Notes under the pieces: model-generated | Databases searched by the model: none | The model's input: the letters and a program-made list of their open reading frames with translations, nothing else | What the model was told of the DNA's origin: nothing | DNA from: Desulfobacterales bacterium | Lineage (GTDB): Bacteria > Desulfobacterota > Desulfobacteria > Desulfobacterales > UBA5852 | Direction: 5' to 3' | Length of the DNA: 36,016 nucleotides | Assembly: GCA_030065275.1 (NCBI GenBank) | Contig: JASJCV010000002.1 | Coordinates: 1-36,016, forward strand | Part shown: positions 5,145-22,455 of the stretch, piece after piece | Numbering within the stretch: the stretch's first letter is position 1 | How the letters are laid out: each line of letters begins with the position of its first letter | Translations under genes and position numbers: made by a program

Positions 5145-5933
5145 TCAGGGCCTGTGTGCCGTCACCAGCAGGCGGTGGCGCATGCAGCCGACATCCGCAT
5201 CGCTCCCGGTTGCGGAGGCGGCCGCGCCTTGGTCGTGCACCCGGGCGCCGACAAAGCCGGCCTGGCGCACAAGCCTCAACAGCGTCTCGCGGTCATATAG
5301 ACGGATGCGATAGTTCATGTCCCGTATCAGCCCCCTTTCCTTGCTCAGCACGAGTTCACGCGCGCAGACGCATTCATCCCGAACTTCGCGCTCGCGGCAG
5401 ACCACAACGTCGCCGTCGATTTCATGCCAGGCGTTGGGGGCGATTCTGGTGCGGATCATCTCGCCATCGGCCACGTCCAGGAGCAGCCGTCCGCCGGGTG
5501 CGATAACCCGGCGGCATTCGGCAAGGAGCTGCCGGTCGTTCACCTGATCGCCCATATAACCGAGCGAGTTTCCCAGAATCAGTCCGTAGTCTGAACTGTT
5601 CGCGTTCAAGGGCAGGCAGCGGGCATCGGCTTGAATGAAATTGGCCGACAATCCCTCCCTTCGGGCCGTTTCCCGTCCGATCTCAAGAAGCGGGCGGGAG
5701 TAGTCCACCAGCGTGCACCGCTTGAAACCGCGGCGGCAGAACTCGAGCGTGTGACGCCCCTGGCCGCCGCATAGATCCAGAAGCCTGGCATCGGGGTGGA
5801 GCGACAGCAGCCGGCTATAGATATCTGTCTCGTACCGGGTGATCTCGGCATTGCCCACCGTGCGCGCATCGGTGATCAGATAGACCTCGTCAAAAAGGGT
5901 CTGCCACCAGTCGGGATCGACGCTGATGGTCAT
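5145..5933 (-). CDS. Class I SAM-dependent methyltransferase
   Basis: This 262-residue protein has a Rossmann-type SAM-binding core. Motif I is LLDLCGGQGRHTLEF (about 51-65), followed by acidic motif II LVDYSRPLLEIGRE, ADARCLPLN (about 102-110), and a motif IV/V region with LGNSLGYMGDQVNDRQLL and VIAPGGRLLLDV. The C-terminal half is beta-rich (REVRDECVCARELVLS) and may form the acceptor pocket. The acceptor is unknown. The start codon overlaps the stop of the upstream ATP-grasp gene by the tetranucleotide ATGA, so the two are translationally coupled. A small-molecule or peptide acceptor made by the ligase upstream is a reasonable inference, not a demonstrated one. Confidence 0.88.
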   Translation of the reverse strand: MTISVDPDWWQTLFDEVYLITDARTVGNAEITRYETDIYSRLLSLHPDARLLDLCGGQGRHTLEFCRRGFKRCTLVDYSRPLLEIGRETARREGLSANFIQADARCLPLNANSSDYGLILGNSLGYMGDQVNDRQLLAECRRVIAPGGRLLLDVADGEMIRTRIAPNAWHEIDGDVVVCREREVRDECVCARELVLSKERGLIRDMNYRIRLYDRETLLRLVRQAGFVGARVHDQGAAASATGSDADVGCMRHRLLVTAHRP

Positions 5934-7321
5934 ACGGCCTCCGGTTCGGCTCCGAAACCAAACAGGCCGTCGGCGGCGAAGATTGCCGGACCGCCCTGCC
6001 ATGGCTGCAGACGCGCGATTTCCAGTTCGTCTTCCTCGATGTCGATGTATTCGTCCAGTTCGCCGGCCTGCCACATTTTCTCAAGTTTGAGACTGTCTTT
6101 CCACATGGCACGACCATAGACGTCCAGCGCATTCAATTGTCCTGCGGTGATGATGCGCGGCCGCAGCGCGATCTTGATCGGTCCCAGCAGGTAGGTGAAC
6201 CTAGCCTTCAGGGCCAGTTCGTTTTGTTCGTCCTCTATGGCTTTGAGTTCGCTGTAGCCGAGGCTGGCGATGGCCCGATTGATTTGGGCGACGGCCTGCC
6301 CCACCCTCTGTTCGGTCTTCAGTACGGCCAGGGGCTGAACCCCCCCTCCGCTGCCGACATTCGTGGGCACGTCGCCGTAACGGCATAAAAAGCCGAAGGT
6401 CTTTTCCGGGCCGATGAGGCAGCGGAAATCGGTCTGGCGGGTGGTCAACTGCACCGTTTCAGCGGCGCGGTCGATTTCCGGCATGGCTTCAGCCCACATG
6501 TTGAGCGGCACTTTCTGCTGCACGATGTAATGCCCCTTTTCGAGCGCCTTGGCAATGGCCGTATCCGCATCATGGGCGCCGCCGCCGACCATCACGCCGA
6601 TGCCGGAATAGCCCCGCTCCGGTTTCAACACCAGATTCGACCAGTTGGAGCGGCACCAGGCAATCAGGTCGCGAATGCTCTCACCGTGGGGGCCATCGGT
6701 GGCACGCTCGAAAAAGCGCCGCGTCCACGGGGTTCGCCGAACGGTTTCCGGCTCGAAACGTTCTGCCAGCACGCCGGTGAAAACCTCGAACATGCTTTTG
6801 ACATTGATCGGCTCCGTGCCGCGCGGATTGAGCACCCGGTTTTCGCCGATGACCTGCATCAGGGGGGACAAATCGTGTTGGCGGTGCAATTTGAGAAAGA
6901 CGTCGTTGTTGAAATCCATGAACACCAGACTGACCGGGCGTCCCCGATGGCAGACGCGGCCGTTGCACGTTTCAAATTCATGCGGGGCCGCCAGTATACC
7001 CGTAACACCATCGACCCGGTCCAGCCGTTCGGCCAGATTGATGTTCTCGGTTACTTCGGCAAGGGTCTCCTCCTCGGCCACCACCGCGATCAATCCTTTA
7101 TTATTGCCCTCGCGCCGGCGAAAAACGTCCAGGAGCATTTCGGTGAAACCGACCACCGGATAGAGCATGGGGTGATCGAAATCGAGGGCCACGCCCGTTG
7201 GATTGAGTTGATTCAACCGGCGCCAGACCACTTTGGCAATTTCCTGGGTGATGCGCTGATAATCCCAGCCGCCGGGGCTGCCCAGATTCCATTCCGAATG
7301 ATAACCGTGAAAAGACGTCAA
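5930..7321 (-). CDS. ATP-grasp domain protein (putative carboxylate-amine/thiol ligase)
   Basis: This 463-residue protein has ATP-grasp hallmarks. The nucleotide-binding strand-loop LVLKPERGYSGIGVMVGG (about 230-247) has Lys233 and a glycine-rich turn. The hinge-like YIVQQKVPL lies at 265-273, TDFRCLIG at 297-304 and RYGDVPTNVGSGGGVQPL at about 314-331 in the metal-binding region. The N-terminal 200 residues (LDFDHPMLYPVVGFTEMLLD and MDFNNDVFLKLH) presumably form the substrate-binding part, as in glutathionylspermidine-synthase-like or permuted ATP-grasp ligases. The family normally activates a carboxylate as acyl phosphate and joins it to an amine or thiol. Substrates are unknown. It is the middle gene of an overlapping trio, sharing ATGA with the genes on both sides. 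Confidence 0.83.
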   Translation of the reverse strand: MTSFHGYHSEWNLGSPGGWDYQRITQEIAKVVWRRLNQLNPTGVALDFDHPMLYPVVGFTEMLLDVFRRREGNNKGLIAVVAEEETLAEVTENINLAERLDRVDGVTGILAAPHEFETCNGRVCHRGRPVSLVFMDFNNDVFLKLHRQHDLSPLMQVIGENRVLNPRGTEPINVKSMFEVFTGVLAERFEPETVRRTPWTRRFFERATDGPHGESIRDLIAWCRSNWSNLVLKPERGYSGIGVMVGGGAHDADTAIAKALEKGHYIVQQKVPLNMWAEAMPEIDRAAETVQLTTRQTDFRCLIGPEKTFGFLCRYGDVPTNVGSGGGVQPLAVLKTEQRVGQAVAQINRAIASLGYSELKAIEDEQNELALKARFTYLLGPIKIALRPRIITAGQLNALDVYGRAMWKDSLKLEKMWQAGELDEYIDIEEDELEIARLQPWQGGPAIFAADGLFGFGAEPEAV

Positions 7322-8886
7322 TGTTCACCTCCTTGCATCAAAAACGTTTCAAGCTGATCGAATTCGATTTCCCCCTGGGCCAGAACCAGACGGGCGAATT
7401 GACTGACCTTGCGGGGGCCCTGGCATCTGCCGAATAGCCGCCGAAACCGCCGTCGCCCGATCGCATAGCTGAGTTGGTAGCCCGGCTTGAGCGCATAGCG
7501 CGCCACGGCGGCCCGGGCCCGTTGCGGCGCCATGCCTTGGGCGCTTAACAGTCCGGTGGCGTCCTCCAAACTCTGGCGGTGAAGGTGAATGTTCAGATCC
7601 ACGCGCCCCCGGAGCGCCCTCCAGAAACGTCGTTTGGCCATGAGCAAACTGTCGGACGGTCCGCTGAAAAACCCCGTGGCAAACATGAGCTCTTCGCTAA
7701 AGCTCGCCCAGCCCTCGTAAAACAGCGGAAATTCCAGGTGACGGCGGACCAATCGCTTGTGATTCCAGCGGCAGGTGTCCAGGAGATGGTGCCCGGGGTA
7801 TGTTTCATGGGCGGTGAGGAGGCGGTAGTCGGCCGGCACGGCGTCCTCGAGGACATAAAAAGTTCCACCGCGAGCCGGATGGCCTGGCGCGGCGCTAAAC
7901 GCGGCCGTGCTGCGTATGGGTGCCATGTAAGGCGGGATGGTTTCAACCCGCACGGGACATTCCCGGGTCAGGCCCGCAGGCATTAATCCCTCATCGGTAC
8001 AATGGGCGGACAGCGCATCGATCGCCCGGCGAAAGGGTCCCCTTGGTCTGCTGTGAGGCCGGGGGCGCTTCAGACCGGCCACCACAGCCCGCCAATCCGC
8101 AGAAGGTTCGATCTCAGCCGCGTGCCGGTGCAGCAAGCGCGTGACGGATTCCATTTCGCGCGTGAGTTCTTCTTCCAACTCGGCTGTGGGGACGCGACAG
8201 CCGATATGTGACGCCGCAATCCGTTCGTAAATCTCGACGGGCAGCCGGAACGACTCCTCCATCGGAATCGATTGAAGATGGGTGTCAAATCGGCCCAGGG
8301 CCATCCGGGCCGAGCGGGTGATTTCGTCCTCGAGCGGCAATCCCCGCAGCCAGGCCGTGAGGCTCTGGGCCATGGCCCGGCCCAATCGATTGAACAGGGC
8401 CGGCACGCCCGCTAGATTGATTTGAGCGCCTTCAAGAAAGGCCGGCACGCCCTTAAGCCGCTGTCTGAAGGGTTCGGCACCCTTGTCGATGGCTTCGGCC
8501 AACCCGATTCCCATGATGCTCAGATAAAACGTCGGTTGCTTGCGATGCGCATTCACCAGGGTTAATTGTTCATGCAGCGTATTCAGCATCCGCCGCATCA
8601 AATGGAGGTCGATGCGGGAATCCCGTGATGGCAAGGTGGGTTCCAGCCCATCCAGGCTTCGCAGCCAGTTCTGACAATGACTTGCGAACGTGTGGATGCT
8701 CTCTGCCGAGAAATCGTCCCAGCGTGACCAATTTGCGGATCCTGGCGGTATTTGGGGAAAGAAATGAAATTCGTCGCTGGCGGTGCACACGGGAAACCGC
8801 CAAGCGATATTCGTCAGGATGTCATCGGCGACCCGCTCGAAATCCTGGTTCGATCGATCGGCTTCAGTTGCTGTCCGTGGTTCCAT
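7318..8886 (-). CDS. DUF885 family protein (putative zinc metallopeptidase)
   Basis: This 522-residue, largely helical protein carries the DUF885 signature HETYPGHHLLDTCRW (about 360-374) and, about 25 residues later, YEGWASFSEELMFATGF. In this family these supply the HE..PGH zinc ligands and a downstream glutamate. The enzyme class is predicted to be a metallo-carboxypeptidase or aminopeptidase. No convincing signal peptide is seen, so it is probably cytoplasmic, whereas many DUF885 proteins are exported. I chose the ATG at 8886; a TTG eight codons upstream is possible, and neither has a strong ribosome site. Its stop overlaps the start of the ATP-grasp gene (ATGA), making it the promoter-proximal gene of a three-gene coupled unit. 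Confidence 0.85.
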   Translation of the reverse strand: MEPRTATEADRSNQDFERVADDILTNIAWRFPVCTASDEFHFFPQIPPGSANWSRWDDFSAESIHTFASHCQNWLRSLDGLEPTLPSRDSRIDLHLMRRMLNTLHEQLTLVNAHRKQPTFYLSIMGIGLAEAIDKGAEPFRQRLKGVPAFLEGAQINLAGVPALFNRLGRAMAQSLTAWLRGLPLEDEITRSARMALGRFDTHLQSIPMEESFRLPVEIYERIAASHIGCRVPTAELEEELTREMESVTRLLHRHAAEIEPSADWRAVVAGLKRPRPHSRPRGPFRRAIDALSAHCTDEGLMPAGLTRECPVRVETIPPYMAPIRSTAAFSAAPGHPARGGTFYVLEDAVPADYRLLTAHETYPGHHLLDTCRWNHKRLVRRHLEFPLFYEGWASFSEELMFATGFFSGPSDSLLMAKRRFWRALRGRVDLNIHLHRQSLEDATGLLSAQGMAPQRARAAVARYALKPGYQLSYAIGRRRFRRLFGRCQGPRKVSQFARLVLAQGEIEFDQLETFLMQGGEH

Positions 8887-11023: not shown

Positions 11024-11938
11024 CTAGACGTTCATCCTCCGGAGCCGATGCCGCAACCAGGCCATGCCCAATCGGCCCTTGAGGTTGAAAAGGGGCAGAA
11101 GCCCGTCCAGCCGTTTTTCGATCCAGGGTGTCAGATAACAGATGCGTATGAGTTCATGATACAGGTGTTGGATGTCAGGGGATTCAAAGCGAATCCGATC
11201 GTGGTCATGATTGAGCCCCCATCGGCGGGCGATTCGGTCGGCGGCTCGGGCCCCCTCACGAATAGAGACGACCGTACTCAAGGGACTCACGGGCAGATGT
11301 ACGTCCGACGGTCGATGGTCGAGCGACGCGGCCGCCGCCCCGGAGAGCCTCCGACGCCAGCCTTCGGTGTCGAACGCTCCGGGCCCGCAAGACTTGTCGA
11401 TCGGATGCGTGCCGATTCCGGGCGCCACGGTCCGGGCCTGGCGGCAGGCTTCCGGGCAGCCGGAAAAGAAAAGGGGCCGGATGCCGACGGGCAATAGACT
11501 CGCCGCAAAGAGCTGAATCTCGGGCAGGCATCGACCGTTAACCCGGATGTCGCTCAGCCGGGAGGTCAGGGTATGCGCCAGAAACCCGCCTGTTCCGGAT
11601 GCCGCATGCATGCCCAGAAACATCACGGCGTCAGCCGGCGGCAAGGCCCCCATCCCGGGAACGGGACCCATGTGGTAGCCCGATATCACCCGCACCCTCC
11701 GCGGGAGACGATCCACCAACAGGTTGTATCCGGTGCGGTGAAAGTCCTTGACGGTCAGCGCCGAGACGCCGGCCTTGAGCAGGGCGCGGGCGACGGCCCC
11801 CACATCGGCGGTCATGGCTTCGCAGGCACGGACCCATGCCTTGGTCATAAAGGCGGAGCTTTCGTAATTCCAGCAACCGGAACTGCCCTCGATATCGGCA
11901 ACGATCAACACATGCCGGTAACCGTGGGACGAATCCAT
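11024..11938 (-). CDS. M55 family (DppA-like) D-aminopeptidase
   Basis: This 304-residue protein matches DppA-type M55 zinc aminopeptidases. The N-terminal VADIEGSSG gives the Asp15/Glu17 metal pair. VKDFHRTG, LGMHAASGTGG and VNGRCLPEIQ supply the histidines and glutamate expected for a two-zinc site. The family hydrolyses D-amino-acid dipeptides, for example from peptidoglycan. The C-terminal 50 residues (LTPWIEKRLDGLLPLFNLKG) are unusual for DppA and could be a family-specific tail. I chose the ATG at 11938; an in-frame TTG at 11953 overlaps the stop of the upstream M48 protease gene (TTGA) and has GAGG four bases upstream, so it is a serious alternative. It is probably co-transcribed with the M48 gene. 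Confidence 0.82.
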   Translation of the reverse strand: MDSSHGYRHVLIVADIEGSSGCWNYESSAFMTKAWVRACEAMTADVGAVARALLKAGVSALTVKDFHRTGYNLLVDRLPRRVRVISGYHMGPVPGMGALPPADAVMFLGMHAASGTGGFLAHTLTSRLSDIRVNGRCLPEIQLFAASLLPVGIRPLFFSGCPEACRQARTVAPGIGTHPIDKSCGPGAFDTEGWRRRLSGAAAASLDHRPSDVHLPVSPLSTVVSIREGARAADRIARRWGLNHDHDRIRFESPDIQHLYHELIRICYLTPWIEKRLDGLLPLFNLKGRLGMAWLRHRLRRMNV

Positions 11939-11949
11939 GCGCCGGCCGC

Positions 11950-13212
11950 TCAAGCGGCCTCAGCGACGCGGGCCCGGATCGCCCGGATGCGCGCCATGAC
12001 CGGCGGATGCGAATAATTCAGGAAAACGAAGAATGGGTGGGGGGTCAGATTGGATAGATGGTTCACCGAAAGGGTCTTCAACGCGCTGATCATGGCTTCG
12101 GCGTTCTGCGTTGTATCGACGGCGAAGCGATCGGCACTGAATTCGTTGCGGCGTGAAACGAACGACGCCAGAAGACCTAAAAAGAATTCGACCGGCGTGT
12201 AGAGCAGGCCGAAAAACACCATCCCGGCAGAAACCGAGATCTGGGACATGCCAAAAGCCTCGAAAAGCGCGGGCGCGGAGACACACAGGGAAAGCATGAA
12301 AAACATGAGCCCCGTCTGGAGAACATTGAGAAACAGGCCTGTCAGGAGATGGTGCAATTTGTAGTGCCCCATCTCGTGTCCGATGACGGCAACCAGTTCG
12401 TCGGTGTCGTGACGCTTGACCAGTGTGTCGAAGAGAACGATGCGCTTGTGGCGTCCGAAACCGGTAAAAAAGGCATTGCTCTTGGACGATCGTTTGGAGC
12501 CGTCCATGATAAAAACGTTTTTCAAAGGGAAGTGGATAGAGGCGGCATATCCCATGATCGCGTTTCGCAGGGCATCCTCGCGCAACGGTTCGAAGCGATT
12601 GAAAAGCGGCATGATCCAGGTGGGTGCCAGATATTGCATCACGAGCATGAATACGATCACCACCAGCCACGAATACCACCAGGCATTGCCGCCGGCGGCT
12701 TCGAAAAAAAAGATGACGCCGGCCACAAGCGGCCCTCCCAGCGCCACGCCGAGCACCACACCCTTGATACGGTCGAGAATAAATGTTGCCGGACTCGTGA
12801 GATTGAACCCGTAACGTGTCTCGATGACAAAGGTGGCGTAGATGTTAAATGGCAACGATACGAGGCCCTGGAGCAATACCAGGGCACCGATGTAGACGAC
12901 ACCGGTGGCCACGGTGCCCCACTCCAATCCGCGCACGATGGCATCCAAACCGGGGAATCCGCCGCCAAACCAGAAAGCCAGGATCACCAGGAGATTGAAA
13001 CCGGATGAAAGCCAGCCCAAACGCGTATTGTCGCGCAGATAGCGCTGCGAGCGGCGGTAGCGCCTGTCATCGTAGTAAGGTTTGAATTCATCCGGCGGGC
13101 GGCTTGTCATGGCCTTGAGATTGAAAAGGTCGGCGGTGAAATTGAGCAGGAACTCCAGTATCAGGGCCAGCAGAATGATCCAGGCAACGATGTTCATATC
13201 CAAGGCAAGCAT
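11950..13212 (-). CDS. M48 family metallopeptidase (Ste24/CAAX-protease-like), integral membrane
   Basis: This roughly 420-residue polytopic membrane protease has the zinc motif HEMGH at about 279-283 and the downstream third-ligand region SRRNEFSADRFAV (about 355). A Ste24-type layout is visible: N-terminal helices, the cytoplasmic segment FVIETRYGFNLTSPATF, then NAFFTGFGRHKRIVLFDTLV before the active site. The C-terminal LSNLTPHPFFVFLNYSHPPV is typical of Ste24 homologues. In bacteria such enzymes handle membrane-protein quality control; CAAX processing is a eukaryotic role. The start is uncertain: the ATG at 13212 has GAGG directly adjacent, a TTG lies two codons upstream, and another ATG is at 13197. 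The M55 gene follows within about a dozen bases. Confidence 0.92.
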   Translation of the reverse strand: MLALDMNIVAWIILLALILEFLLNFTADLFNLKAMTSRPPDEFKPYYDDRRYRRSQRYLRDNTRLGWLSSGFNLLVILAFWFGGGFPGLDAIVRGLEWGTVATGVVYIGALVLLQGLVSLPFNIYATFVIETRYGFNLTSPATFILDRIKGVVLGVALGGPLVAGVIFFFEAAGGNAWWYSWLVVIVFMLVMQYLAPTWIMPLFNRFEPLREDALRNAIMGYAASIHFPLKNVFIMDGSKRSSKSNAFFTGFGRHKRIVLFDTLVKRHDTDELVAVIGHEMGHYKLHHLLTGLFLNVLQTGLMFFMLSLCVSAPALFEAFGMSQISVSAGMVFFGLLYTPVEFFLGLLASFVSRRNEFSADRFAVDTTQNAEAMISALKTLSVNHLSNLTPHPFFVFLNYSHPPVMARIRAIRARVAEAA

Positions 13213-13275
13213 CCTCAAACCGCGTCCAAGGGAATCGTTTCATCCATACCAAGGAGAAATGACCAAACACCAATC

Positions 13276-13428: not shown

Positions 13429-15600
13429 TTAATCGATGGCCCCACTGCGGATATCGTCGAGGAAATTGCCGATCACCCGGTGGACTTTGGCCGCACCATC
13501 ACCGAGAAGAATGCCGTGCCGATCGAAATTGAAGAGCATATATTTTTTATCCTCCGAACCGATCAGTTCAAAAACGCGTCGCGACCCACGTGGATCGACC
13601 ACCGGGTCACCGGCGGATTGCACCACCACGGCCGGCACCTGGACATGGTTCAAGCGCTCCTCGACCCGGTCCATGAGCCGCTCCAGTTCGCGAATGCCCG
13701 CGATGGGGTTGCGCGAATAGTTGATGTGCGGATTTTCCGGTTCGTTGGCGATGAATTCCTTGACGGGCCCGCCGGTGCGAATGCGCTTCATCAGGCGGTT
13801 CCATATATCCATGGCGGGCACGAAGCGGGCCGAAAAATCCTGCAAACGCAAAGGCGGACAGACAGCGAATACGCCTCGCACGGACGGCAGGCGCGAGGTC
13901 GTTTCAAGGGCCAGCCCGGCCCCATTTGAAAAACCACCGAGGACCACCCGGCGACAGTGGCAGGCCATCAGGGCGCATCCGGCCTCCACCACCCGAAGCC
14001 ATTCCTGATAGGAGCGTGTGGCCAAGTCCTCTGGGGCCGTGCCGTGCCCGGGAACACGCGGCGCGTAGACCCAGAAGCCCTTGCGCTGAATGAAGCGCGC
14101 CAGCTCGCGGACCTCTTCCGGAGCGGCCATGTAGCCGTGGACCAGTACAACACCCAGGCTCCTGGATCGGCCGCGAAGGAGAAAAGGCCGGCCGATGGAC
14201 GGATCCTTGGATTCGCCCTCGATGCGATAGGTGGCGTAGTCCCGTTCAAAGGCGGCTTCCGCCTGCCCGAGCAGACGACGTGCCAGCCGGCGGCGTGTCG
14301 CAAACCCCGGCTGCCAGGCGATCCGACGCAGACAGCGCTGCAGGGAATTCAACGGTTCGATTTCATTGGCCATCACGCGCACCGGGTTGTCCCTGCGGAT
14401 GCGGTGGAATGCAAACGGACGCGTGAGTCGTTTGGCATCTTTGTACAAAAAGCCATCGCGGGCTGTGACGACACCCGTTTCCCGGGCCAACTCGTAAAAA
14501 TCGCGATAGTTGTCGAATCGGTCATCGGTCAGCAGATGCAGCTGGTCTTCGCGCAGGCTGCGATGCAAATGGAGGTCCGGGGCGGTGAGGCAATGGGCCG
14601 CCGCCAGATAGACCTTGCGCCGCAGGTCGTCCGGACAGAGGCGTTTGGAAGGCGCCAACCGCAGCAAGGAGGCGAAGAGGTGGTCGTGGTTGACCGTGGT
14701 CATGGCGTAGATCGCGTCCATATACCGTTTCATGATCTGCACGGCTTCCCGGCGCATCTGGCTCCGGGAACGGATCTCTTCGTCGAAACCGATCGGCCGT
14801 CCGGACTGGATATCCTGGTTGATGGTCGGACAGCTCAGGCATCGATTGATGGCGATGGGCGCACCAAAGTTCATGTCGACATCCACACCGGATAGAAACA
14901 TCGTGCCTTCGGCCATCAATTCCTCCACCGCACGCTCGGACAGCCCCTCTTTGAAACGCCGCGCCAGCGAGGTCAGCATGTTTTCCCTGGCCCGGATGGG
15001 ATAGTAGGTCAGGTTGACCGGCACGATAAACAGGTTGCGCTCGAGCACGGGCGTAATATCGTCGATGCCGAACTGCCCGATCAACCGTTGGGTCTCGGCG
15101 TGTTCCAAGGCATGCAGATGGCGCAGGCGCTGCCGGTAGAACTCGGTGCGCAGCGCCAGCGTGGCCGCCCCGGTGTGGGGCGGATGCTTGCCACCGGCGT
15201 AGGAAATCATGTGGCGGCCTTTTTCCACCAGCTTTTTGTTCTTGACCATCCGCCCTTCCGGATAGATGACCCAGGCGGCCTCGCCGGTCAGCAGTGTCTT
15301 GACAATCAAGCGGTCACGATCCGGATCCCGGGTGGATACGGCTCCGACCTGGTCGAGATAGTTTCCCAACGGGCCCTTGAACAGACCGAAGTCCGCCAGC
15401 GACCATACCGGGGTGCCGGTCAACCGGTAAATGAAGTAGGGCATCAACAGGGTTTCGATGCGCGTGAAATGGTTGACCACGAAAATCAGGGACGACGACG
15501 AGGGAATGCGCTCGGCACCGTGGGAGCGGATGTTGGCCTTGGAGAGCCAGGAGAACGCTTTGATGGCCAGGCCGGTGGTGCGGTAGGCGAAGGGATTCAT
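13429..15600 (-). CDS. Fusion protein: PlsC-like acyltransferase plus alpha/beta hydrolase
   Basis: This 723-residue protein has two enzymatic parts. Residues about 20-300 resemble glycerolipid acyltransferases (PlsC/LPLAT). NHFTRIE (43-49) takes the place of the usual NHxxxxD box, with Glu49 for Asp, and IYPEGRMVKN (112-121) takes that of the FPEGTRS box. The middle (about 300-470) is helical with no recognised domain. Residues about 480-715 form an alpha/beta hydrolase: oxyanion-region VLVHGYMAAPEEV, nucleophile elbow GFSNG with Ser558, QSAGDPVVDP with Asp665 and FDRHGI with His695, all in the expected order of a monoacylglycerol-lipase/carboxylesterase. The start ATG (15598-15600) lacks a clear Shine-Dalgarno. 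It is probably peripheral to the inner membrane. Remodelling of acyl chains on one lipid is an inference. Confidence 0.88.
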   Translation of the reverse strand: MNPFAYRTTGLAIKAFSWLSKANIRSHGAERIPSSSSLIFVVNHFTRIETLLMPYFIYRLTGTPVWSLADFGLFKGPLGNYLDQVGAVSTRDPDRDRLIVKTLLTGEAAWVIYPEGRMVKNKKLVEKGRHMISYAGGKHPPHTGAATLALRTEFYRQRLRHLHALEHAETQRLIGQFGIDDITPVLERNLFIVPVNLTYYPIRARENMLTSLARRFKEGLSERAVEELMAEGTMFLSGVDVDMNFGAPIAINRCLSCPTINQDIQSGRPIGFDEEIRSRSQMRREAVQIMKRYMDAIYAMTTVNHDHLFASLLRLAPSKRLCPDDLRRKVYLAAAHCLTAPDLHLHRSLREDQLHLLTDDRFDNYRDFYELARETGVVTARDGFLYKDAKRLTRPFAFHRIRRDNPVRVMANEIEPLNSLQRCLRRIAWQPGFATRRRLARRLLGQAEAAFERDYATYRIEGESKDPSIGRPFLLRGRSRSLGVVLVHGYMAAPEEVRELARFIQRKGFWVYAPRVPGHGTAPEDLATRSYQEWLRVVEAGCALMACHCRRVVLGGFSNGAGLALETTSRLPSVRGVFAVCPPLRLQDFSARFVPAMDIWNRLMKRIRTGGPVKEFIANEPENPHINYSRNPIAGIRELERLMDRVEERLNHVQVPAVVVQSAGDPVVDPRGSRRVFELIGSEDKKYMLFNFDRHGILLGDGAAKVHRVIGNFLDDIRSGAID

Positions 15601-18739: not shown

Positions 18740-21199
18740 TCAGTTTAAATTCAATCCCCTGAACCGCAGGATCACCACCAATCCGACGGCATAGAAGCCA
18801 AGCGCCAGCTTCATGATAAACGCATACCCGGTTTGGGTTGCCAGCAGCGGGACGGCGATAGCACCCAGGACGGTGGCGCATCCATTGATCCCCCAGGCCC
18901 AGGGAACCAGCCCTGAGCGCTTGGCGGTCAACGTGACGATCCCCAGAGGAAAGGCCATACCCATGGGCACCGCCAGGGGCAGAACCAGCGCGAGGGCCAC
19001 AATCAACTTCAACATCAGCGCATCACCACTGAATCGATGGATCAGGGCGTTCATGGCAGCAAAGGCCAACCAACCGATGACGATAACGGCCACCAGGGCC
19101 AAAGGCAGCAATTTCGGTGCGGACACGCCCCGTGCCAACGCGGCGTCGGCGCCGATGCTTCCGCCCCCCGCGCCAACTAAAAAGCCGGCCAGGGCCAGGG
19201 CCGCCGCCATTAGCGGGTGGTGAAGAAACATTGAAAGGCGCTGGATGAAGACCATCTCCACGAAGATGAAGCCCCCCCCGATGGCCGTGAAATAAAGCAG
19301 TGTCGTGACCCTGCGGGCGCTTTCATCGACCCCGGTGCCATGTTGCCGTCGCTGCCACCACACCGGCAAACCGATGAGGACGAGGCTTAAAGCGGCGGCC
19401 TGGATCAGGGTGGCCAGCAGGAGCGGATAGCCCCAATCCATCAGGGCGATACCGCCCGAATGGCGCAGGGAGGCAATTTCGGGCGAACTCTTCCAGCGAA
19501 AATAATGATCGAAAAAAGGGCGGTCGTCCGTCGGCGGACTTAGTTCGTATTTGTACCGGGCGATGAATTCGCCGCGCTTCTCGCCCGCCAGTTCGCGTGT
19601 CCCTTCGGCAAACATGGGGCGGGCGAGCACGCTGTACCGATTGGCTTCCTCCGGGTGAAGGTCGCTCAAGTAGACCAGATCGAAAGCCCATTGTCGGCAG
19701 AAACGCCGGACAGCCTGCTTTTCACGGGGGCGAAGGGGTGATCTACCCACCAGCACGACCGCTGTGCGCCAGTTCCGGATCACCGCCAGATGTTCCTTCG
19801 GCTGCGAAACGCCCTGCCCTTCCAGCATCCGCCAGGCCGTAACAAAGGCTTTGAGGCCGCCGCGGGGCGGCAGACGGGTCCAGAGCGGAGCGACGATCAA
19901 TCCGTCATTTTCCAGATGACCCCACAGCTGCGCCAGACCTTCAACGGTCCAAAGCGCGTTTTCCCCAAACGTCGCCATTTCGCTGCCGCCCGCCATCGGC
20001 AGTTGGATGAGATCGAACACCCCTGCAGCGGATTGCAGATAGGCGCGTACCGTCGTGCTGTGATAGCGCACCGCCCCCTGCATACGATCGAACCCGCTGA
20101 ATGCCTGCAGCCGTCCTTTCAAAAGCCGCGCATAGAGGGGGTGGGCGTCCACCGCTTCGACACTTTGGGCACCAAAGGCGCGGGCCCTGAGGATATCCTG
20201 CCCGCCGCCGGCACCGGCGACAAGGACCCGTCGGGCATTGGGTCGTAGCACCAACCCAACGCTGGGTGTACACTGTTTCAGATAGTCCGCTGTTCGCGGC
20301 TGGGCGTTGAAGCGATCGATGACCGTCATTGCCTGGCCGTCGACAAAGAAAGCCATCTGGTCGGGAAGGGGCGCGTCACTGTTCAGACTCAGCCCGGGGG
20401 CATGACGAAATGGAACTTCGGGGTTGGCCACCACCGTAAACCACCCCATGGGGTGATGGCCTTCATAAATGATTCGAGCGCCAGGGACCCTGAGGGTTTG
20501 GGCCAGCGGTTTGTACGGATTAACAGCGGCCCGACTCCGGGGCGCGACCTTCATCCCCGACACGACGACCAATCCCAAGGCGGCCAACAGGGCGATAGCG
20601 GTCCGGCCGTCAATCTTGCGCCAGTGCCAGGAGGCGGCGGCGACGGCCGCAACGGCACAGGCGGCAACAATGCAGAGGGACGTCTGCGGCGGCAGATGGA
20701 ACAACACACCGACCGTCAACCCGGCTCCTGCGCCGGCGCCCGCGAGGTCCGCGGCATAGACTCGGGATATTCGTCGGTCGTAGTGGTGCAGCATGGCCCC
20801 GAGACCGATCGCCGCCAATAAAAAGGGGATGAGCAGGAGCACGTAGATGCCGGCCAGATAACCCCATTGACGGGGGCTCCACAGAAATGCCAGCGCATTG
20901 AAAGGCAGTCGCTGGGCGGCGGCGAAGCAGAGCACACTGGTCAGGCTGAAACCGATGGCGCCGAACGCAAACACGACGCGCAATCGGCCGGCGCTGAACC
21001 TTCCTGTCATGGCCAGGAGGGTGCCGCTGGTACCGTAACCCAGCAGCGCAATACTGATCATCATAAAGGCGAAGTGGTGCCAGTGAACGATGGCAAAAAG
21101 ACGCATGAGCAGCAGTTCATAGGCCAGAACAGCCGCCGCCAGCAAGGCCATCCCCAGGAGAGGGGGCGATGCCTCTGGTTCATGCGCTGATGCGCTCAT
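18740..21199 (-). CDS. Multi-pass membrane protein with spermidine-synthase-like domain
   Basis: This 819-residue protein has about six or seven hydrophobic segments in residues 10-225 and at least six more in 610-815, flanking a soluble domain (about 230-600). The soluble part contains a Rossmann SAM-type motif VLVAGAGGGQDILRARAFGA (about 335-354) followed by VEAVDAHPLYARL, as in spermidine synthases. The usual catalytic aspartate region reads FDLIQLPMAGG and lacks the expected Asp, so polyamine synthesis is doubtful. SPPTDDRPFFDHYF follows, as in other membrane-bound SpeE-like proteins of unknown function. The start has GAGG five bases upstream, and the gene begins 12 bases after pcm, so it is probably in the Ni-SOD operon. 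Transport or an electron/polyamine-related role cannot be decided. Confidence 0.85.
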   Translation of the reverse strand: MSASAHEPEASPPLLGMALLAAAVLAYELLLMRLFAIVHWHHFAFMMISIALLGYGTSGTLLAMTGRFSAGRLRVVFAFGAIGFSLTSVLCFAAAQRLPFNALAFLWSPRQWGYLAGIYVLLLIPFLLAAIGLGAMLHHYDRRISRVYAADLAGAGAGAGLTVGVLFHLPPQTSLCIVAACAVAAVAAASWHWRKIDGRTAIALLAALGLVVVSGMKVAPRSRAAVNPYKPLAQTLRVPGARIIYEGHHPMGWFTVVANPEVPFRHAPGLSLNSDAPLPDQMAFFVDGQAMTVIDRFNAQPRTADYLKQCTPSVGLVLRPNARRVLVAGAGGGQDILRARAFGAQSVEAVDAHPLYARLLKGRLQAFSGFDRMQGAVRYHSTTVRAYLQSAAGVFDLIQLPMAGGSEMATFGENALWTVEGLAQLWGHLENDGLIVAPLWTRLPPRGGLKAFVTAWRMLEGQGVSQPKEHLAVIRNWRTAVVLVGRSPLRPREKQAVRRFCRQWAFDLVYLSDLHPEEANRYSVLARPMFAEGTRELAGEKRGEFIARYKYELSPPTDDRPFFDHYFRWKSSPEIASLRHSGGIALMDWGYPLLLATLIQAAALSLVLIGLPVWWQRRQHGTGVDESARRVTTLLYFTAIGGGFIFVEMVFIQRLSMFLHHPLMAAALALAGFLVGAGGGSIGADAALARGVSAPKLLPLALVAVIVIGWLAFAAMNALIHRFSGDALMLKLIVALALVLPLAVPMGMAFPLGIVTLTAKRSGLVPWAWGINGCATVLGAIAVPLLATQTGYAFIMKLALGFYAVGLVVILRFRGLNLN

Positions 21200-21211
21200 G
21201 CCGACCTCGCG

Positions 21212-22012
21212 TCAGTGTTCACCGGTGAGGGGCACGAAACGCACCGGCAGAATTTGTCGCGTCTGCACATTTCCCTCGAGACTTTTGGTGATGAGCAAGA
21301 GAAATTGAACGCCGAAGCGATGACCGACCGGAATGACCATCCGTCCGCCGTTTTTCAACTGGCGCACCAGGGGCGGCGGCACATGGTCGGCAGCGGCCGT
21401 GACGATGATGCCGTCGAAGGGGGCCGCTTCCGGCCAGCCATAATAGCCATCCCCCTGGCGCGACTGAACGCGAACGTATCCCAATTGTTTGAATCGCGCC
21501 TGCGCCTCACGGAAGAGTTCCGGGATGATTTCGATGGTGCGAACGCTCGCTCCGATATCGGCCAGGATGGCCGCCTGATATCCCGATCCGGTTCCCACCT
21601 CGAGGACGGCATCTCCGGGTTGGATCTCCAGCAGGTCGGTCATGAGCGCGACGATGTAGGGCTGGGATATGGTTTGGCCGTGGCCGATGGGGAGCGGCCG
21701 ATTTTCGTAGGCCGCCGCCATGACCTCTTGGGGTACGAAAGCGTGACGGGGGACCCGTTCCATGGCGGCAAGCACTTCATCGCGCAGCGTCTTGCGGCCG
21801 ATGTAGGCGCGCGTGGCGATGACGTCTTCGCGAATAGCCGCCACCATCTGCCGGCGCGGGATCTCCCAATCACCGGCCGGGACCGCAACGATTGCTGCAG
21901 TCCCGTTCGCGACCAGGACCAATGCCAGCATGAGAAGCACCGAAAACGGCCGTCGCATTGGCCGCCATCCGACAGGCAACGCATCGGGCCCCTTTGTCCG
22001 TTTCGCCTGCAT
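21212..22012 (-). CDS. pcm: Protein-L-isoaspartate O-methyltransferase with export-type N-terminus
   Basis: This 266-residue enzyme methylates L-isoaspartyl residues in damaged proteins so that they can revert. Family motifs are present: RHAFVPQEVMAAAYENRPLP, GHGQTISQPYIVALMTDLL, the SAM loop VLEVGTGSGYQAAILA, GDGYYGWPEAAPFDGIIVTA and NGGRMVIPVG. Ahead of the catalytic domain is a hydrophobic segment RRPFSVLLMLALVLVANGTA (about 20-39), typical of a signal peptide or anchor and absent from cytoplasmic PIMTs. The protein may thus act in the periplasm. Two starts are possible: ATG at 22012 (used here, with AGG six bases upstream) and ATG at 21958, which would give a more compact signal peptide. 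It follows sodN after five bases. Confidence 0.9.
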   Translation of the reverse strand: MQAKRTKGPDALPVGWRPMRRPFSVLLMLALVLVANGTAAIVAVPAGDWEIPRRQMVAAIREDVIATRAYIGRKTLRDEVLAAMERVPRHAFVPQEVMAAAYENRPLPIGHGQTISQPYIVALMTDLLEIQPGDAVLEVGTGSGYQAAILADIGASVRTIEIIPELFREAQARFKQLGYVRVQSRQGDGYYGWPEAAPFDGIIVTAAADHVPPPLVRQLKNGGRMVIPVGHRFGVQFLLLITKSLEGNVQTRQILPVRFVPLTGEH

Positions 22013-22017
22013 CGGGC

Positions 22018-22455
22018 CTATTTAAAATAGAGCGTATCGAAAGTTTGCAGCAATTCGCGCAGCTCGGCGACGTATTTCAGATCCGTCGTCTGTTTGCACT
22101 TCATGGCCGCAATCAGCATTTGGTGGAGCACAGCAATTTTGCGGTCATATTGCGCGTCATCCGGCTTGATCCGCTGGGTCATGAAGTACTGCGTCACGAT
22201 GGTCTGAATTTCCGTGGCATGGGTTTCCTTGTTCATAACCCAGCGCACCAGTTGGTTGTAATTGACCCGATCGGATTTTTGCAGCTCCAGAATCTGCTTG
22301 GTCGATTTTTCGATCGTGCCGATGTGCTCGGCGATCAACGCCGCACGGGCCCTGTCATCGTAGATGCCGCAGGGGATTTCACAATGGGCCTGCGCGGGCG
22401 GGGCCAAGATGACGGCAAGCGCTAGAGCGACTGTAAAGATCACAGCATGTTTCAT
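22018..22455 (-). CDS. sodN: Nickel superoxide dismutase with Sec signal peptide
   Basis: This 145-residue precursor starts with a clear signal peptide (residues 1-23, hydrophobic core ending APPAQA). It is directly followed by the nickel hook HCEIPCGIY, which matches the Ni-SOD HCxxPCxxY signature: His1, Cys2 and Cys6 bind nickel and Tyr9 lines the channel. The mature chain of 122 residues has the all-helical profile and length of Ni-SOD (about 117). In Ni-SOD the N-terminal His amine and side chain are nickel ligands, so precise proteolysis is essential. Here cleavage after Ala23 by signal peptidase would expose it. No sodX-type peptidase gene lies nearby. The ribosome site AAAAGGAGGACCGT is strong. 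The enzyme would dismutate superoxide in the periplasm. Confidence 0.93.
   Translation of the reverse strand: MKHAVIFTVALALAVILAPPAQAHCEIPCGIYDDRARAALIAEHIGTIEKSTKQILELQKSDRVNYNQLVRWVMNKETHATEIQTIVTQYFMTQRIKPDDAQYDRKIAVLHQMLIAAMKCKQTTDLKYVAELRELLQTFDTLYFK

Follow-up and report, generated by a model that had tools for sequence, protein, structure and literature searches.

The DNA considered here, which we call the window, is a stretch of 36,016 nucleotides from a Desulfobacterales bacterium (contig JASJCV010000002.1, assembly GCA_030065275.1), and coordinates given without a locus number refer to it. Positions 5145–8886 are filled by three adjacent open reading frames (ORFs) on the minus strand, in the order DUF885, ATP-grasp, methyltransferase and with the extents claimed for them in an initial annotation of the sequence; all cassette features described below lie on that strand. 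The first gene (7318..8886, 522 aa, ATG start) encodes a DUF885 zinc metallopeptidase, identified by PF05960 (E=2.5e-47), the PDB relatives 3o0y and 3iuk, and HExxPGH and EGW motifs. The second (5930..7321, 463 aa) encodes a predicted circularly permuted ATP-grasp amide ligase, on the evidence of hhalign to distant relatives (99.8%), a rotation test, AlphaFold and Foldseek, and the third (5145..5933, 262 aa) a predicted class I S-adenosylmethionine (SAM)-dependent methyltransferase of small-molecule type, assigned from PF13649, profile comparison, AlphaFold and Foldseek. Pfam matched the DUF885 and methyltransferase proteins but returned no above-threshold match for the ATP-grasp protein, while none of the three proteins exceeded an NCBIfam cut-off and Rfam gave no riboswitch or other RNA match within the window. 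A role in anti-phage defence was considered and rejected, as PADLOC gave just a generic methyltransferase-domain match.

The genes overlap by four bases at each junction. ATGA had been reported for both; this holds between ATP-grasp and methyltransferase (5930..5933, ligase TGA stop and methyltransferase ATG start), where the same –4 spacing is also found in 34/61 loci, whereas the DUF885/ATP-grasp overlap is TTGA (7318..7321), combining the DUF885 TGA stop with a TTG start. The TTG start is preceded by a strong ribosome-binding site of its own, AAGGAGGTGA, lying within the 3' end of DUF885 (7325..7334), and the methyltransferase ATG by a strong GGAGG (5938..5942). Translational coupling of the three genes is thus plausible, but the fixed product ratio that had been deduced from the overlaps does not follow, since each downstream gene has its own strong ribosome-binding site.

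Linkage and co-occurrence of the three genes

With each species represented by one genome, a scan yielded 69 ligase loci, mostly in Desulfobacterota, and a phylum-wide draw added 16 orthologues with ligase identities down to 43%, 14 of which lie in a full triad, giving 85 loci in total. Where the contig extends far enough, DUF885 lies upstream of the ligase in 73/74 loci and the methyltransferase downstream in at least 70/73; in one of the three methyltransferase exceptions (L088) the gene is present, having been missed through overlapping stop-to-stop frames. The order of the cassette holds down to 43–50% ligase identity. Some loci come from bins labelled Aquificota, Aminicenantes or Spirochaetota, phylum labels that are possibly binning errors. 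A search for spread of the cassette on plasmids gave no match, and an apparent ligase gene fusion (an 866 aa frame in genome G745) was not accepted, as it comprises an assembly gap of N joined to TonB receptor-like sequence.

Presence and absence follow the same pattern. Among 49 genomes of the same order, drawn from 35 genera, 30 have the ligase and 19 do not; DUF885 above cut-off was found in 30/30 of the former and 0/19 of the latter, and the methyltransferase subfamily (E<1e-20) likewise in 30/30 and 0/19, although these genomes are related and do not represent 49 independent events. Pairwise distances of the three proteins are correlated (r=0.60–0.76, with 0/2000 permutations as high), which shared vertical descent alone could explain. 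The set is divided in two genomes. In G522, DUF885 lies with one ligase copy and the methyltransferase with a second, and in G455 the ligase copy beside an intact DUF885 has lost profile positions 127–365 by an in-frame internal deletion (L099, 7239–7904) and is a degenerating paralogue; DUF885 therefore persists in a genome with the ligase and methyltransferase even when unlinked. Another ligase paralogue (L094, 8131–10105) abuts at its end a convergently oriented gene whose product is carboxypeptidase-like, of the MATCAP family (PF08014).

The conserved order in 85 loci, together with presence and absence in 49 genomes, excludes chance association, and the three genes belong together as a functional unit. 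The initial annotation had proposed that they act together and had named scattering in close relatives as the observation that would count against this; the genes were found linked. Flanking genes are not conserved, with no flanking family present in more than 6 loci, while the three genes are constant, so that the unit comprises these three genes. The flanks bear on the idea that DUF885 digests imported peptides, whose fragments would be recycled or detoxified by the other two enzymes. In Desulfospira joergensenii DSM 10085 (L022, 848–6410) DUF885 is immediately preceded, on the same strand, by a complete dipeptide/oligopeptide ABC transporter that overlaps the DUF885 start, but the transporter was found at this one locus and most flanks are unrelated, making peptide scavenging an improbable account of the cassette as a whole.

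The ATP-grasp ligase and its chain order

The product of the second gene is an ATP-grasp ligase, as had been proposed, and the residues originally picked out by eye (Lys233, TDFR and TNVGSGGG) are real, invariant in 62 homologues and aligned to the ATP-grasp site. Lys233, the predicted nucleotide-binding lysine (6623..6625), lies in LVLKPxRGYSG and pairs with LVLKP of relatives; in the DFR motif (residues 298–300, 6422..6430) D298 and R300 are invariant, and in TNVGSGGG (residues 320–327, 6341..6364), which pairs with NVAQxGG of relatives, T320, N321, G323 and G325–327 are invariant. A further motif and the circular permutation described below were absent from the initial annotation. The motif, EWNLGSPGG at residues 10–18 (7268..7294), is a predicted ExN metal-binding site at the very N-terminus, with E10, N12 and G18 invariant, which in the rotated profile pairs with ENxxxPxG of CP_ATPgrasp_2. 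The full set of superfamily residues (K233, D298, R300, N321, G325–327, E10 and N12), their equivalences being taken from profile alignments, is thus identical in 62/62 homologues. Structural modelling, which had been suggested as a check, gave an ATP-grasp fold (AlphaFold pLDDT 88.3, pTM 0.87) whose top Foldseek matches are ATP-grasp proteins, and on this model the ligase has both the fold and a complete site.

Four distant relatives recovered in the phylum search (L083–L086, 28–31% identity) align to the ligase by profile at 99.8% (E=2.4e-28), and the alignment begins with N12, which is paired with the N of the ExN motif in those relatives. Rotating the ligase at residue 335–346 strengthened the match: E fell from 8e-29 (312 columns) to 6.4e-36 (435 columns). 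Moreover, the C-terminal 129 residues alone (residues 335–463, 5933..6319) match the N-terminus of these relatives (95.2%, E=2.5e-8), while column-shuffled controls gave E>0.2; this segment appears to be a relocated helical domain, N-terminal in the relatives. The rotation and C-terminal-segment matches indicate a chain cut at a different point from that of the relatives. Judged from these alignments, the ligase is circularly permuted with respect to its nearest relatives, the chain opening at the metal-binding strand and ending in the helical domain. To our knowledge this cut-point has no earlier report among ATP-grasp proteins. At one of the distant loci (L083, 9462–13707) the permuted relative is followed by two genes that look TldD/TldE-like by eye.

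The relationship extends to the CP_ATPgrasp_2 family (PF14403), which the rotated profile matches over 418 columns (97.9%, E=5e-13) when the intermediate relatives are included. The match needs these bridging relatives: the cassette ligase profile alone gives no significant match to the family and rotation alone brings no improvement. The ligase falls short of the PF14403 gathering cut-off (best E 0.0015 among 37 members, and no cut-off match for the window protein), and the family order of helical domain, ExN, Lys and GG is not followed, the helical domain being C-terminal here. A second, independent gene in the host genome encodes a CP_ATPgrasp_2 protein 863 aa long (contig C264; L114, 1219–3810).

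By Foldseek, the structures closest to the model are homoglutathione synthetase and human glutathione synthetase, after which come RimK and E. coli GshB; YjfC, YgiC, LysX and glutathionylspermidine synthetase rank lower. Most structural matches are amide-forming ligases, although they also include synapsins and an inositol kinase, and we infer amide chemistry; the ester or thioester formation that had been allowed for is unsupported, the nearest folds being mostly amide-forming ligases.

The cassette could also belong to a graspetide-like pathway for ribosomally synthesized and post-translationally modified peptides (RiPPs), in which the substrate would be a ribosomal precursor peptide, and at some graspetide loci an ATP-grasp gene does stand together with genes for a UbiE-like methyltransferase and a zincin peptidase (PMC8939145). 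However, none of the ORFs of 20–150 aa located up to 1.5 kb from the cassette was conserved, precursors encoded elsewhere being outside this search, and the largest small-ORF clusters (5 loci) seem to be spurious frames that run across a conserved gene downstream. With no precursor found near the cassette, and a ligase of the permuted type lacking any NCBIfam match above cut-off, a RiPP pathway seems extremely unlikely.

The partner enzymes and the proposed pathway

The DUF885 protein scores 163.1 bits against PF05960, for which the cut-off is 32.4, and carries the metallopeptidase motif HExxPGHH as HETYPGHH (residues 360–367, 7786..7809), in which H360, E361, G365 and H366 are invariant in 54/54 homologues and H367 is kept in 50/54. 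The HExxPGH and EGW region is retained in the 54 homologues and common to the solved lipoprotein 3o0y, and the family is assigned to a zinc-peptidase clan (PMC12572635). No signal peptide is evident in the protein sequence, and the enzyme is thus taken to be cytosolic.

The methyltransferase has a motif I of class I SAM-dependent enzymes (LLDLCGGQGRH, with D53, G57 and G59 invariant), matches Methyltransf_25 (PF13649, E=3.6e-16) in Pfam, and is predicted to adopt a Rossmann fold (AlphaFold pLDDT 92.1, and Foldseek). Among solved structures, the profile of the METHYLTRANSFERASE best matches NmbA (9ri2; E=2.2e-30, 230 columns), the enzyme that N-methylates the cysteine of bacillithiol (PMC12719100), and the next match is glycine/sarcosine N-methyltransferase (GSMT, about 1e-16). 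Foldseek sets the model near the N-methyltransferases CypM, CcbJ, NmbA, CgnL, GSMT and TylM1. The modelled fold is of the small-molecule type, and the enzyme likely methylates a nitrogen of a small molecule, although this is short of proof.

The match to NmbA raises the idea that the product of the cassette is a low-molecular-weight thiol akin to N-methyl-bacillithiol. One stand-alone ligase paralogue (L104, 7111–9798) lies 49 bp downstream of what reads, from the protein, as a glutaredoxin-like/thioredoxin reductase-like fusion, which would fit a thiol. Yet BshC was found in 0/49 genomes with a control detected in Bacillus subtilis, so that the bacillithiol link fails; GshA-type GCS2 is rare (4/49 genomes), and NmbA ranks only 23 by structure. 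We consider a thiol product improbable. A link to glutathione was also tried and rejected, the GCS2 genes in those four genomes being unconnected to the cassette; the PF04262 type was outside this search.

The small-molecule character of the methyltransferase likewise bears on a writer/eraser system acting on a protein, in which the ATP-grasp enzyme would add amino acids, DUF885 trim them and the methyltransferase cap the tail. RimK is among the nearest ligase folds, and RimK/RimB is a known ATP-grasp and peptidase operon (PMC12239564). The methyltransferase, however, matches small-molecule types rather than protein methyltransferases, the other close ligase folds act on small peptides and amines, and the partner is the zinc peptidase DUF885 in place of a RimB-type aspartic peptidase, which is not present; we therefore regard modification of a protein as unlikely.

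We propose instead that the cassette encodes a self-contained pathway in the cytosol, by which an N-methylated, amide-linked metabolite is made and turned over, a proposal we hold to be somewhat more probable than its opposite. The ATP-grasp enzyme would activate a carboxylate with ATP and link this to an amine. The resulting conjugate, dipeptide-like or of amino acid–amine type, would then be methylated by the methyltransferase, most likely on an amine nitrogen. DUF885 would cut the conjugate, either for turnover or to release a finished part. The order of these steps and the role of the peptidase are our inference. The gene set is compatible with the route to a modified peptide or amino-acid conjugate that had been suggested from the sequence, in which trimming or release by the peptidase is one possibility among several. 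The fuller claim, of a dedicated three-enzyme pathway across Desulfobacterota for an undescribed metabolite of this kind, built on an ATP-grasp ligase with a new cut-point (the chain starting at the ExN metal strand, the helical domain C-terminal), appears to us evenly balanced.

The same three activities would serve a scheme in which the ligase adds a carrier amino acid, the substrate protected in this way is methylated and the carrier is afterwards taken off by DUF885, comparable to gamma-glutamyl or LysW pathways. This scheme needs exactly these three activities, agrees with the strict co-occurrence of the genes, and finds some support in the LysX/ArgX fold among the ligase matches; but carrier pathways usually include further modifying enzymes or a carrier protein, none of which is conserved nearby, and we judge it rather unlikely.

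Several observations weigh against the proposed synthesis and turnover of an N-methylated conjugate. The function of the cassette is read from sequence and predicted structures. TM-scores of the ligase to glutathione synthetases are only 0.37–0.44, as expected given the distance and permutation. Several top folds for the methyltransferase are indole C-methyltransferases (PsmD, SgMT, SeMT), so that N-methylation is not certain. DUF885 is the least conserved partner, with a median identity of 33% compared to 64% for the ligase, and its spacing varies among loci; it may therefore be an accessory component. Finally, stand-alone ligase paralogues without DUF885 or methyltransferase (L093, L095, L098 and L104) indicate that the ligase can work in other settings.

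If the proposal is correct, a widespread group of marine sulfate reducers and animal symbionts makes an undescribed small molecule, from a gene set short enough for direct expression and assay. The co-occurrence supplies a defined pathway partner for DUF885, a family still named as unknown and mentioned in only 13 of the open-access papers searched. The ligase represents one more circular arrangement of the ATP-grasp fold, of value in following how such ligases evolve, and it may find use as an amide-forming biocatalyst. We found no open-access paper joining DUF885, ATP-grasp and methyltransferase, although a 2009 survey of ATP-grasp operons was outside that search and may already list the combination.

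Elsewhere in the window, genes for M55 D-aminopeptidase-like (11024–11953) and M48 CAAX-protease (11950–13218) proteins lie on the cassette strand and share a 4-base overlap; the order M48, M55, PAS-LuxR, cassette is retained in the closest relative (L002) only. Beyond them, also on the minus strand, lie a gene for a 723-aa protein that begins with an acyltransferase domain and ends with an alpha/beta-hydrolase domain (13429–15600), and one for an 819-aa polytopic membrane protein without a Pfam match, its middle spermidine-synthase-like by eye (18740–22455), which adjoins PCMT and nickel superoxide dismutase genes.

Comparison with known systems

The cassette ligase resembles PF14403 in full-length profile similarity, after rotation and with intermediates, and in having ExN ahead of the nucleotide-binding Lys, but it falls below the Pfam cut-off, carries its helical domain at the other end of the chain and has other gene partners. 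Eukaryotic-type glutathione synthetase is also a circularly permuted ATP-grasp, and the glutathione and homoglutathione synthetases (2hgs, 3kal) are the best structural matches of the model; identity is nevertheless 12–14% with TM about 0.4, the cassette ligase has no Pfam match, and the GshA-type GCS2 of glutathione biosynthesis is missing in nearly all cassette carriers. NmbA is the closest sequence match of the methyltransferase but differs in its structural rank and in that the bacillithiol pathway is absent from carriers.

The same operon logic is seen in the NAGGN osmolyte trio (ATP-grasp/GNAT, AsnO and M42 peptidase), where the ligase shares an operon with a modifying enzyme and a peptidase. 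The enzyme families differ, and the NCBIfam scan of the three cassette proteins gave no match to the NAGGN ligase, amidotransferase or peptidase families. The E. coli ATP-grasp ligases YjfC, YgiC and GspS are among the structural matches but give no sequence match, and we know of no cassette joining them to DUF885 or a methyltransferase. YjfC and YgiC are reported to be peptide-spermidine ligases in a study cited in PMC12568646. RimK/RimB and RloABC also pair an ATP-grasp ligase with a peptidase in an operon (PMC12239564), and the RimK fold is related to that of the cassette ligase, but their peptidase is aspartic (retropepsin-like) and they contain no methyltransferase. ATP-grasp/peptidase operons are already known as a kind.

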